Shown here piece by piece: positions 16,151 to 28,537 of a DNA stretch of 42,738 bases (its first letter is position 1; each line of letters opens with the position of its first letter). Location: positions 1 through 42,738 of the forward strand of contig JANXAS010000010.1 of the NCBI GenBank assembly GCA_025062195.1, read 5' to 3'. A program made the position numbers and the translations under genes. This DNA comes from Armatimonadota bacterium (GTDB lineage: Bacteria > Armatimonadota > Fervidibacteria > Fervidibacterales > Thermosaccharophagaceae). Under the pieces are notes generated by a model that had not been told where the DNA came from, did no database searches, and worked only from the letters and a program-made list of their open reading frames with translations.

Positions 16151-18229
16151 CTAATCACTTGTCTTTTTTCTTGCTTCTGCGATTATTTTTTCCGCTAAGT
16201 GTGTTGGAACTTCCTCATAATGTGAAAACCTCATCGTATACTGGCCACGACCCCTTGTCAACGACCTTAATGTAGTTGCATACCGTTGCATCTCAGCAAG
16301 AGGAACTAATGCGTGTATTTTTTGCATTCCATTTATAGACTCCATCCCGAGTATCTTTCCCCTTTTTCCGTTTAAATCACCGATTATATCCCCCATGTTC
16401 TCTTCTGGCACTATTATCTCAACTTCCATAATCGGCTCAAGTAAGTAGGGCTCACACTGTGCCATTGCATTACGAAATGCAATAATCCCAGCATTTTTAA
16501 AAGCTATATCGGATGAATCAACCTCGTGATGCTTACCATCAAACAATGTAACTTTCACATCCACAACCGGATAACCGGCAAGAACACCTTGTTGCATCGC
16601 CTCAATGACCCCTTTTTCAACCGATGGTATAAATTTGCTCGGTATTACACCACCGACTATCGCATCAACAAACTCATACCCTTCTCCACGCTCAAGCGGC
16701 TCCACTTCAAGCCATACCACACCATATTGCCCTCTTCCACCAGTTTGGCGAATGTATCTTCCCTCGCTTCTTCCCTTCTTTCGGATAGTTTCTTTGTATG
16801 GTATTTTAGGCAAAGTGACCTCAACATCGGCGCCAAATTTTCGCTTTAAGCGCTCAACGGCAACCTCAAGGTGTAGGTCGCCCAACCCTGCAATTATCGT
16901 TTCTCCAGTCTCATTGTTCCTATACCATTTAAACGATCCATCCTCTTCTTGCAGTCTTTGTAGCCCACTTAAAAGTTTATCTTCATCGCCCCTTGTTTTT
17001 GGATGAATCGCCATTTCCATTACTGGTGTTGGGAATTCTATCGGCGGCAAAAGCAGCGGGCGAGTTTCGTCACAGAGTGTATGACCAGTGCGGGTAACCT
17101 CCAATTTAGCAACTGCTCCTATTTGCCCTGCACGAACTATCCCAACCGACTCAATATTTTTGCCCTGAGGGATGAAGAGTTGCCCTATACGCTCACGCCT
17201 ACCCTCATTTGCGTTAAATACGACAGAATCTGAGGATATTGTCCCAGAAAACACGCAAAAGTAATTAATGCGCCCAACATATGGATCAGTTACAGTTTTG
17301 AAAACCAATGCTGCAAGCGGTTCATTTTGATTCGGAGTTAATCTAATTACTTCACCATCCCCAGGCGCCTTAGCTTCAATTGCGGGGCGCATAGCAGGTG
17401 AAGGGACAAAGTCAACAATGTAGTCAAGAAGGAGAGAAATCCCAACACAATTTGAGCTTGAACCGCATAAAACAGGCACTGCCGAACCCGATGAGATAAC
17501 ATCTAAAAGACCTTGCTTAATTTCCGCATCACTCAACTCTTGTCCTTCAATATACTTTTCAAGCAGCTCATCGCTGCTTTCCGCGGCGACTTCGACAATC
17601 TGCTCCCGATGTTTTGCGACCTTTTCCGAAATTTCTTCCGGAATTTCGCACTCAATCGGCTCCCCACGCTCGGTAAAAGTGAATGCTTTCTGAGAGATAA
17701 TATCAACAACACCATTAAACTTGGATCTCTCCCCAATCGGCAAAGTGAGCAAAATGAGCCTTGTTTTAAGCCTTTCTTTAGCCTGTGATAACAGGCTTTC
17801 AAAATCAGCCCTCTCACTGTCCAGTTTTGTAACAAAGACTAATCTCGCAAGCCCATATTCACGCGCTTTAACCCACAACCTTTCTGCTTGGAACTCAACA
17901 CTACCGCTTGCATCCAAAACGAGAACAGCTCCATCCACAACGCGCAATGCCGCATAAGCATCTCCGACAAAGTCAATACCACCTGGTGTGTCAATTATGT
18001 TAATTAAGCAACCACGCCAATTGCAATATCCAACAGCAAGATTTATGCTATGTTGCCTCTGTTTTTCATCCTCCTCGTAATCAAAGACGCTTGTTCCCCT
18101 CTCAACTTTGCCTTGCCTATCAACCATTTTAGCAACCCACAATATAGCATCTGCCAACGAAGTTTTTCCCGAGCCACCTTGACCAATTAAAGCTATGTTT
18201 CTTATTGCCTCAGGTTCTATTAATTCCAT
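16151..18229 (-). CDS. EF-G paralogue (EF-G-2 type translational GTPase) inside the spc operon
   Basis: A 692-aa protein with the five EF-G domains. G1 is GQGGSGKTSL, not the [10 protein letters not shown] of canonical EF-G. G3 reads DTPGGIDF, so the catalytic His of DTPGH is Gly. G4 reads VTKLD, with Thr in place of the NKxD Asn. Domain IV and V stretches are well kept ([39 protein letters not shown]). From memory, Thermus thermophilus EF-G-2 has the same TKLD and also lacks the G3 His, so this is that family rather than a decayed fusA. Its function is uncertain: ribosome-stimulated GTPase, translocation or recycling under special conditions. The ATG at 18229 has GAGGTGA upstream overlapping the rpsQ stop, so it is coupled to rpsQ; rplN follows after 22 nt. 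Confidence 0.9.
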   Translation of the reverse strand: MELIEPEAIRNIALIGQGGSGKTSLADAILWVAKMVDRQGKVERGTSVFDYEEDEKQRQHSINLAVGYCNWRGCLINIIDTPGGIDFVGDAYAALRVVDGAVLVLDASGSVEFQAERLWVKAREYGLARLVFVTKLDSERADFESLLSQAKERLKTRLILLTLPIGERSKFNGVVDIISQKAFTFTERGEPIECEIPEEISEKVAKHREQIVEVAAESSDELLEKYIEGQELSDAEIKQGLLDVISSGSAVPVLCGSSSNCVGISLLLDYIVDFVPSPAMRPAIEAKAPGDGEVIRLTPNQNEPLAALVFKTVTDPYVGRINYFCVFSGTISSDSVVFNANEGRRERIGQLFIPQGKNIESVGIVRAGQIGAVAKLEVTRTGHTLCDETRPLLLPPIEFPTPVMEMAIHPKTRGDEDKLLSGLQRLQEEDGSFKWYRNNETGETIIAGLGDLHLEVAVERLKRKFGADVEVTLPKIPYKETIRKKGRSEGRYIRQTGGRGQYGVVWLEVEPLERGEGYEFVDAIVGGVIPSKFIPSVEKGVIEAMQQGVLAGYPVVDVKVTLFDGKHHEVDSSDIAFKNAGIIAFRNAMAQCEPYLLEPIMEVEIIVPEENMGDIIGDLNGKRGKILGMESINGMQKIHALVPLAEMQRYATTLRSLTRGRGQYTMRFSHYEEVPTHLAEKIIAEARKKTSD

Positions 18230-18234
18230 CTCTT

Positions 18235-18585
18235 TCACCTCTCAACTTCGCCTTCTTGCCCCTCATGAAGTTCAGGCGGAATTACCGCTGATTCTTCCGC
18301 TTCCTTTGCAGCCACAGGAACTGCTATTTTTGCCCTTTCAATTATGCGAACCACACGCCACCTCTTTAGCTTGCTTAGTGGTCTTGTTTCTACGATTTCA
18401 ACGATATCTCCTACACGGCATTCATTGTTTTCGTCGTGAGCGTAATATTTTTTTCGCTTGCGCAAGACCTTTTTGTATAATGGATGGCGAATAAGCCTCT
18501 CTACGACCACAACGACAGTTTTATTCATCTTATCGCTAACGACTACCCCTATTCTTCTTTTCCTTCTTCCTCTTTGAATTCCCAC
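18235..18585 (-). CDS. rpsQ: 30S ribosomal protein S17 with C-terminal extension
   Basis: Primary 16S rRNA-binding protein with an OB fold: [19 protein letters not shown], then the [19 protein letters not shown] stretch and [19 protein letters not shown]. The S17 core ends near residue 85. About 30 extra residues follow, rich in Glu and Ala, ending EGQEGEVER. The stop codon overlaps the ribosome-binding region of the EF-G paralogue downstream. Confidence 0.97.
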
Positions 18586-26126: not shown

Positions 26127-26546
26127 TTAGGACTTTGGTCTTTTAGCGCCGTAAACTGAGCGAGCCTTCCTTCTGCCATCAACACCGGCGCAATCAAGCG
26201 CCCCTCTGACGACCTTGTATCTTATGCCCGGGAGATCTTTAACCCGTCCACCCCTTACAAGCACGACGCTGTGTTCCTGCAAGTTATGCCCTATGCCCGG
26301 AATGTAGGCGGTAATGATACGCCTATTACTTAGGCGCACCTTGGCAATCTTGCGCAAAGCCGAGTTCGGTTTCTTCGGCGTCATAGTTCGCACCGCTATG
26401 CACACACCGCGCAACATTGGTGCACCTTGTGAGTCATAAACAAGCTTTCCCTTGAGAGCATTGTAACGGTATTTAAGAGCCGGCGTCTTTGTGCGGTGCT
26501 TCTTTGGCTTACGAGCACCCTTTACCATCTGGTTGATTGTCGGCAT
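26127..26546 (-). CDS. rpsL: 30S ribosomal protein S12
   Basis: Decoding-centre protein and first gene of the cluster. It begins [20 protein letters not shown] and has [20 protein letters not shown] and the [19 protein letters not shown] signature. The lysines whose substitution gives streptomycin resistance (in TPKKPNS and GRVKDLPG) are wild type. 139 aa. GAGGGTGAT precedes the ATG. A terminator-like hairpin lies about 50 nt upstream in its leader. Confidence 0.98.
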
Positions 26547-26592
26547 CTCACAATCACCCTCTTATGCCATTTTGATCACAACTTCGCATCGC

Positions 26593-26628
26593 AAAAAATT
26601 GCCCCTCTGGCTGTGCCAGAGGGGCAAT
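26593..26628 (-). terminator. Intrinsic terminator or attenuator in the rpsL leader
   Basis: A perfect 14-bp stem (26598-26611 with 26615-26628) has a 3-nt loop, and on the minus strand is followed by six U residues (26593-26598, A-run on the plus strand). It points towards rpsL and ends about 47 nt before its start codon. No minus-strand gene lies upstream for at least 800 nt, so it is more likely an attenuator within the leader than the end of another operon. Confidence 0.75.
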
Positions 26629-26657
26629 GGATAAGCAGCCCTTTTTCAAACAATGAC

Positions 26658-26710
26658 TCAGGGCGCTTTGCAGCGAATGCATTGCATTCGCTGTCTCCCA
26701 TGCCCTCTGA
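26658..26710 (-). promoter_or_regulatory. Palindrome in the rpsL upstream region
   Basis: A 21-nt palindrome with perfect 10-bp arms (AGCGAATGCA, 26672-26681, with 26683-26692) is enclosed by TCAGGGC (26658-26664) and GCCCTCTGA (26702-26710), which also pair. It lies upstream of the terminator-like hairpin in the same leader. It could be an operator or the first helix of an RNA regulatory structure. Confidence 0.4.
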
Positions 26711-26719
26711 CGACACAGC

Positions 26720-26725
26720 ATGATA
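26720..26725 (-). promoter_or_regulatory. Weak -10 candidate for the rpsL transcript
   Basis: The minus strand reads TATCAT here, a 5/6 match to TATAAT, but no good -35 lies 16-18 bp upstream. If used, transcripts would carry a leader of about 165 nt containing the palindrome and the terminator-like hairpin. Confidence 0.2.
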
Positions 26726-26728
26726 ACA

Positions 26729-27400
26729 CACTATATGTCTTCTGATGCACCTTATCGGTGATCACCATCAGCGTGGTTAAGGACTTCATGGTTGAAACCA
26801 CAGTGGCTTAAGATGACACACGCAATGCAGAACCACTGATGACGCCCGGATGTTACAACCGCTCTTTCATTTTAGCGTGATGATGTTCTCTTGTAAAGTC
26901 AGCTGCTTATACCCAAAGCCGTCAGTTTGCCTGCAGTTAAGTTGAATGACCCAACCATATAGGTCTGGTTGATACAGCCTGAGCCGAGTTGAGTTTAAGG
27001 GAGCGGCAAAATCAATGCATCCAATGTAGCGCAAAAGAGAGAAGTGTAAAGAAGCGGTTGATGGTGTTCTCTCGCCGGATATAGTCGACAGCAATCCTGC
27101 GCCAGCTTATTGCGATTGCATCGGCTAAGCGAGTTTGCAACTCATCCACTCTGCAACCTCAGCAGGCTAACTAATACATTACTCAAGCGTCGTTTACAGC
27201 CTCAATCAGAAAAGACAGGGCTTAGATCAACGAGCAGAGCGGTGTGAACTGTTAACATTGTGAGCGATTTGGAGGTGGTGCGGACAAGGGTGCGATAAAT
27301 TTTTGAGCTCATCTCACGCACCTTTGCTGCCACCGTTCATGACGCACCTTTCGCCCTAATTGGAAGGGCGCATTGCTGCAGAGCGAGCGCTATAGGGTAT
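26729..27400. other. Divergent intergenic region without a recognised gene
   Basis: About 670 nt between the rpsL leader and the sugar-gene promoter. Short reading frames here have unrelated-looking translations and no ribosome-binding sites. Visible structure: GGTGATCACC (26757-26766) within a CTGATG/CATCAG inverted repeat, and a CGCCC/GGGCG hairpin near 27352-27371. I looked for tRNA, tmRNA, RNase P and SRP RNA hallmarks and saw none. Confidence 0.4.
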
Positions 27401-27429: not shown

Positions 27430-27476
27430 ACTTATTGGTTGCGACTACATCCTTATGGAAGGGGAGGTGGATAAGG

Positions 27477-28469
27477 ATGCGTCCAGTGACGCTATTCACA
27501 GGTCAGTGGGCTGATATGCCTCTTGAAACCATCGCACAGAAGGCGAGTGAGTGGGGTTATGATGGACTTGAACTTGCTTGCTGGGGAGATCACTTTGATG
27601 TGCGCAAAGCTGTTGAGGACCCAAAGTATTGTGAGGAGCGCAAACAACTTCTTGCAAGATATGGTCTCAATGTGTGGGCTATTAGCAATCACCTTGTAGG
27701 ACAAGCTGTGCTTGACCCGATTGATGAGCGCCATAAAGCTATCCTCCCCGAGCATGTTTGGGGAGATGGCAATCCGGACGGAGTCCGAGAGAGAGCAATT
27801 GAGGAGATGAAGCTAACAGCAAGGGCTGCAAAAAACTTGGGCGTGCAAGTGGTGAATGGATTTACTGGATCACCGATTTGGCATCTTGTCTATCCATTTC
27901 CGCCAGTGCCGCCACAGATGATCGAGGATGGGTTTAAGAAGTTTGCTCAATTGTGGAAGCCCATACTGGATGAGTTCCAAGAATGCGGTGTGAAATTTGC
28001 CCTTGAAGTTCACCCGACAGAAATCGCTTTTGACTTACACACCGCAAGGAAAGCGCTTGAGGCTGTAGATTATCATCCGGCATTCGGTTTCAATTTTGAT
28101 CCCAGCCACCTGCACTGGCAGGGTGTTGACCCAGTCAAATTCATTTACGAGTTTCCGGATCGCATATTCCACATGCATGTGAAGGATGCCATCACAACGC
28201 TTGATGGAAGAAGCGGCATCCTCTCTTCACACTTACCCTTCGGAGACCCAAGAAGGGGTTGGGATTTCCGTTCCCCGGGGAGGGGCGGAATTAATTTTGA
28301 AGAAATAATTCGCGCCCTAAATAACATAGGCTATAACGGTCCGCTATCGGTTGAATGGGAAGACAGCGGCATGGATAGGGAGCATGGCGCAAAAGAGGCT
28401 TGCGAGTTTGTCCGCAGACTACAATTCAAGCCATCCGAGATAAGGTTTGAGGCTGCGTTTGAGAGGTAA
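27477..28469 (+). CDS. TIM-barrel sugar phosphate isomerase/epimerase-like protein
   Basis: A 330-aa protein of the xylose isomerase-like TIM-barrel (AP endonuclease 2) superfamily. It begins [20 protein letters not shown] and has the family [15 protein letters not shown] segment. Probable metal and substrate ligands are the Glu in [10 protein letters not shown], Asp and His in [12 protein letters not shown], His in [10 protein letters not shown], and the Glu in [10 protein letters not shown]. The ATG at 27477 follows GGGGAGGTGG. It is followed by a strong terminator and then by L-rhamnose isomerase, so a role in sugar or polyol breakdown is likely. Exact substrate unknown; relatives include inosose dehydratase and tagatose or xylulose epimerases. 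Confidence 0.85.
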
Positions 28470-28493: not shown

Positions 28494-28537
28494 AAGAGCC
28501 AGCACCATTTTAACATGTGTGTGGTGCTGGCTCTTTT
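28494..28537 (+). terminator. Intrinsic terminator after the sugar isomerase gene
   Basis: A 14-bp perfect stem (28494-28507 with 28522-28535, GAGCCAGCACCA core) and a 14-nt loop are followed by a short T-run. It starts about 25 nt after the stop codon. It separates this gene from rhaI, which must then have its own promoter or depend on readthrough. Confidence 0.75.

Follow-up and report, generated by a model that had tools for sequence, protein, structure and literature searches.

Background

Transcription attenuators in the leader of rpsL have been predicted before, in the part of the survey by Naville and Gautheret (2010; PMC2965389) that concerns this gene and cites Merino and Yanofsky. 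Such leaders were drawn for Listeria, Xanthomonas, Pseudomonas and Rickettsia, with no globally conserved sequence or structure between them (PMC2965389), and rpsL attenuators have so far been seen only as scattered leaders that are mutually unlike. A structured RNA also precedes rpsL in Candidatus Pelagibacter ubique (the rpsL motif, PMC2704228), where it heads a fused str-S10-spc cluster and folds into a three-stem junction; it has been found only in Pelagibacter and in marine metagenomes, is situated between rpoC and rpsL, and fails the terminator criteria of the 2010 survey. A choice between terminator and antiterminator is made by the L10(L12)4 and L20 leaders of B. subtilis, which serve other ribosomal protein operons and whose ligand is known (described or cited in PMC10931766). 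Finally, the str operon of E. coli is under feedback by S7, a translational control exerted at a site between rpsL and rpsG (PMC10931766). Armatimonadetes do not appear in the main text of a survey that presents 20 new ribosomal leaders (PMC7247131), and our search of the open-access literature for this phylum together with leaders or cis-regulatory RNA found nothing. The control of the fused str-S10-spc-alpha cluster is poorly known outside the model phyla.

The window considered here (the whole stretch of DNA that was analysed, 42,738 nucleotides) comes from an uncultured Armatimonadota bacterium, whose fusA has its best match in a record named Armatimonadetes. We think that the 5' leader of its rpsL gene very probably contains a conditional transcription attenuator, which would thus control the whole supercluster of ribosomal protein genes. 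Four elements of this proposal, namely the terminator, its place in the transcript, its mutually exclusive pairing with another strand and its recurrence in the phylum, are supported by sequence comparison and folding.

Like the rpsL leaders of PMC2965389, the predicted device combines a terminator and a proposed antiterminator before rpsL, and it heads the same operon; unlike them, it occurs phylum-wide, has no Rfam family, and often carries a GCCCCUC/GAGGGGC core with an RGGRGGC partner strand. Like the Pelagibacter motif, it is a predicted structured RNA before rpsL at the head of a fused cluster, and its putative junction would have three stems, but (comparing by position) the neighbour of rpsL is a divergent isomerase-like gene instead of rpoC. 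It resembles the two B. subtilis leaders in the choice between two folds before a ribosomal protein operon, although these leaders control other operons with a known ligand, and it concerns the same genes as the S7 feedback of E. coli, except that here feedback is only proposed and the device lies upstream of rpsL. As in an rpsL-leader attenuator, an intrinsic terminator is predicted within the leader and, according to sequence comparison and folding, an antiterminator would exclude it; as in a ribosomal protein leader, the device would stand upstream of a ribosomal protein operon and within its transcript. The Armatimonadota switch is thus, in its predicted function, an rpsL attenuator, and by sequence and structure it is a group of its own. 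A known RNA family can be rejected, since neither the window nor any of 18 related loci reaches the gathering score of an Rfam 15 model, and nothing relevant appears around the leader at E values up to 10. The suggestion of the earlier note on this DNA that the hairpin might belong to a new ribosomal protein leader fits both this result and the position of the device, the binding of a ribosomal protein being putative.

This adds a candidate RNA family without an Rfam match. Most families of a single phylum retain a recognisable version of the switch, whose sequence varies enough for it to be defined and for tests in any cultured member.

The leader of rpsL in the window

The gene rpsL (ribosomal protein S12, Pfam PF00164; 26127-26546), the first of the controlled cluster, lies on the minus strand, so that upstream means higher coordinates. 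The hairpin (26598-26628, minus strand) is a perfect 14-bp stem with an ACA loop, ATTGCCCCTCTGGC-ACA-GCCAGAGGGGCAAT. Its U run (26593-26598, minus strand) has six T, made of the T at 26597-26593 and the last base of the stem, and is separated by 46 nt from the rpsL ATG at 26546, much as the earlier note had described. The second palindrome that it placed just upstream is also present, with 10-bp arms, at 26693-26671 on the minus strand (P2, CAGCGAATGC-AAT-GCATTCGCTG), and appears in both the terminator and the antiterminator folds. In 145 kb of the same genome (the window and 20 small contigs), 219 hairpins are terminator-like, and that of rpsL, with -26.9 kcal/mol, has the lowest energy, the next having -24.1. 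The leader (323 nt) folds with a z-score of -5.45. A repeat element is ruled out, since hairpin and leader are each unique in the genome, the hairpin sequence occurring once in 3.4 Mb.

It had been said that no minus-strand gene lies upstream, and none ends at the hairpin; rpsL is separated from a divergent xylose-isomerase-like gene, which starts at +27435, by 888 nt without a convincing gene. Just 3' of this gene (27435-28469), at 28496-28533 on the plus strand, lies the second-strongest terminator-like hairpin of the stretch examined, probably its ordinary terminator.

The predicted promoter is of the sigma-70 type (TTTACA-17-TAAAAT, 26869-26897, minus strand), with 10 of 12 consensus matches and a start at about 26862, which would give rpsL a 5' leader of about 316 nt (26547-26862, minus strand). 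Of 127 genomes, 110 have a promoter of this type with at least 10 of 12 matches in the 330 nt 5' of the hairpin, against 1.9% in mononucleotide shuffles. Members of one family place it at almost the same distance from the hairpin (f5, about 163 nt; f18, about 119 nt; f21 and f26, about 230 nt). The 240 nt of the window is similar to the distances in f21, f26, f41 and f45 (215-236 nt). Conversely, a predicted promoter of this strength between hairpin and rpsL is found in none of the 100 type A genomes. As promoters lie 5' of the hairpin and none lies between it and rpsL, the hairpin is probably inside the rpsL transcript. A constitutive terminator at this place would shut off an essential cluster, and we therefore infer that termination must be conditional, promoter and termination both being predicted.

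Recurrence of the terminator in Armatimonadota

Regions upstream of rpsL were gathered from 131 Armatimonadota genomes, and terminators (a hairpin of -10 kcal/mol or lower, with at least four T out of six, at most 200 nt before rpsL) were counted over 130 of them. Such a terminator precedes rpsL on the same strand in 105 of the 130 genomes, representing 37 of 41 families. The other strand of these regions has one in 26 of 130, and dinucleotide shuffles in 19%; the strict hairpin before rpsL is missing in the remaining 25 genomes. Many genomes have in common a CCCCUC...GAGGGG core in this terminator. We rejected the idea that the core is a genome-wide terminator signature, because each genome has only 0-10 hairpins with exactly GCCCCTC/GAGGGGC, often no more than with the reversed pattern, and the single one in the genome of the window is that of rpsL. 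Inspection by eye had suggested that the sequence following the U run is conserved, but only 21 of 100 genomes had it, and a search with the f18 motif pattern gained little. The same device in other phyla was likewise rejected: among about 80 loci, mostly from outside Armatimonadota, hairpins were few and the core almost absent, and L033, which did match clearly, is recorded as Armatimonadetes.

Four genomes of the same order were compared, all from another family than that of the window. In f2, the closest family compared (G001, G002 and G004), there is no terminator before rpsL, while promoter-led leaders are kept, and the attenuator has probably been lost. The copy in the window therefore cannot be checked by close relatives. 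The f2 loci L002, L003 and L004, which correspond to G002, G001 and G004, respectively, retain promoter-like sites before rpsL; sequestration of the Shine-Dalgarno sequence as a substitute was not above shuffles in this family. A second layout was observed in G008, G012, G192, G022 and G030, where the -10 box is followed at once by a strong hairpin, which would stand at the extreme 5' end of the RNA and has no partner strand upstream.

Predicted pairing of an upstream strand with the terminator

When the leader is cut at 26612, it is predicted to fold into a helix of 17 pairs that encloses P2 and P3 in a three-way junction. The purine-rich 5' strand of this helix (P1, UGU C GUCAGAGGGCA UG GGA, 26696-26715, minus strand) pairs with 26631-26612, that is, with a candidate antiterminator 3' strand (26612-26631, minus strand, from folding) that overlaps the 5' arm and loop of the terminator; in detail, 26715-26713, 26711-26701 and 26698-26696 pair with 26631-26629, 26626-26625 and 26623-26612. 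P3 (AAGCGCCCU...AGGGCUGCUU, 26633-26668, minus strand, also from folding) is the second enclosed hairpin. In this model the palindrome is thus one of two hairpins within the antiterminator helix, and no device of its own. For the window, folding predicts an antiterminator that arises while the 5' arm is emerging and gives way to the terminator when the 3' arm has been synthesised. Sequence further upstream can also cover the antiterminator strand, a single-sequence prediction to which we give little weight.

None of 200 shuffled upstream sequences paired as well as the window's own strand. In a wider swap test, the terminator 5' arm and loop of each of the 100 type A genomes was paired with the stretch 30-105 nt upstream, its own or one swapped in from another family, with correction for row and column means. 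Own pairing was stronger by a mean of -1.65 kcal/mol over 30 families, 23 of them negative (Wilcoxon p = 0.0003), and the effect in the window, -8.2 kcal/mol, was the largest of the 30. It should be said that 30 of 130 genomes with a candidate hairpin were omitted by judgement, on account of a hairpin that was doubtful, departed widely from the expected form or followed a -10 box directly, and that thirteen hairpin boundaries were placed by hand. Control windows further 5' gave a null result (p = 0.24 and 0.52), as did the reversed arm (p = 0.15).

Family alignments cut before the 3' arm of the terminator assume the antiterminator fold in f5, f18, f21 and f24. Covariation was examined on an alignment of 11 sequences from f18 and f40, in which the terminator covaries clearly: none of 500 shuffles equalled it in cells paired, double changes or score. 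In the same alignment the antiterminator pairs in 88% of cells, as against 32-48% when slid, and its covariation score was equalled by 9 of 500 shuffles; by doubly changed pairs it is not separable from shuffles (135 of 500). The main sequence kept between families, as judged by k-mers, is the partner strand itself (AGGGGG, AGGAGGC and similar). We did not find a common protein-binding aptamer, as the cross-family k-mers show no conserved sequence beyond the antiterminator strands.

Proposed mechanism and alternatives

Taken together, the phylum-wide terminator, the promoters placed only 5' of the hairpin and the matched upstream strand support the attenuation device that the earlier note had suspected. 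Transcription would start near 26862, and the strand 26715-26696 would pair with 26631-26612 in a long antiterminator helix enclosing P2 and P3. As long as this helix persists, RNA polymerase would continue into rpsL. Blocking or displacing the helix would allow the 14-bp hairpin to form, and transcription would then end 46 nt short of the gene, at the U run. The attenuator would respond to a signal, for which we propose, because of the position and by analogy with other ribosomal protein leaders, a ribosomal protein of the cluster, whose excess would favour termination; we give this identification about an even chance. A more speculative idea, which we regard as possible but rather doubtful, is that of one ancestral attenuator that has governed the supercluster since early in the phylum, whose sensor is the antiterminator helix and its junction, without a separate 5' aptamer. 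In this reading, because nothing but the pair of strands in competition for the terminator is kept across families, the ligand, a ribosomal protein or the transcription machinery itself, would read the helix directly.

In a variant of our preferred explanation, the attenuator has no dedicated ligand and reads transcription speed, pausing, nucleotide levels or general factors, NusA and NusG among them. This variant, which we consider a tentative alternative, agrees with the kinetic order of antiterminator and terminator and with the antiterminator itself being the only conserved candidate, no aptamer being found besides; on the other hand, in known leaders of ribosomal protein operons the signal, where it is established, is a ribosomal protein (PMC10931766).

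The other explanations fare much worse. That the hairpin, a very strong intrinsic terminator, is an ordinary unregulated one shielding the cluster from upstream or antisense transcription seems to us quite improbable: with the only good promoters 5' of it, an essential cluster would be silenced, no minus-strand gene ends there, and an upstream strand is matched to each terminator. Attenuation by a leader peptide, with a ribosome on a short ORF picking between the two folds, could use an open frame of 55 codons (26721-26554, minus strand) that spans the whole switch and stops just before rpsL. This frame, however, has no Shine-Dalgarno sequence, ORFs led by such a sequence reach the switch in 49 of 95 genomes against about 56 expected from shuffles, and frames are broken by indels in the family alignments, so that we hold this explanation to be highly improbable. 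Least probable of all is that the hairpin closes the 3' end of an independent small RNA (26862-26593), rpsL being transcribed from elsewhere, since, even if promoter and terminator do bracket about 270 nt, there is no second promoter before rpsL, the 5' part lacks sequence conservation between families, and the terminator and its partner strand stay beside rpsL phylum-wide.

The cluster downstream of the proposed attenuator

Under the preferred reading, a conditional attenuator, the genes placed under control form a near-unbroken run of minus-strand ORFs, ribosomal protein and associated genes, from rpsL to about 3.2 kb, consistent in size with the more than 35 genes that had been claimed. S12, S7, an EF-G paralogue, RpoA, L13 and S9 were identified by Pfam, the others being read from their translations. 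The gap between rpsL and rpsG is 37 nt in the window.

Two further features of the cluster may be mentioned. A second EF-G-like GTPase (16151-18238, minus strand, 695 aa, with Pfam EF-G domains) is located inside it, between the apparent rpsQ and rplN genes. The S12 protein (26127-26546, minus strand) has 139 aa. Since the Pfam S12 model covers only residues 40-138, there may be an insertion close to the N terminus; the longer form is found in many, not all, of the Armatimonadota matches.
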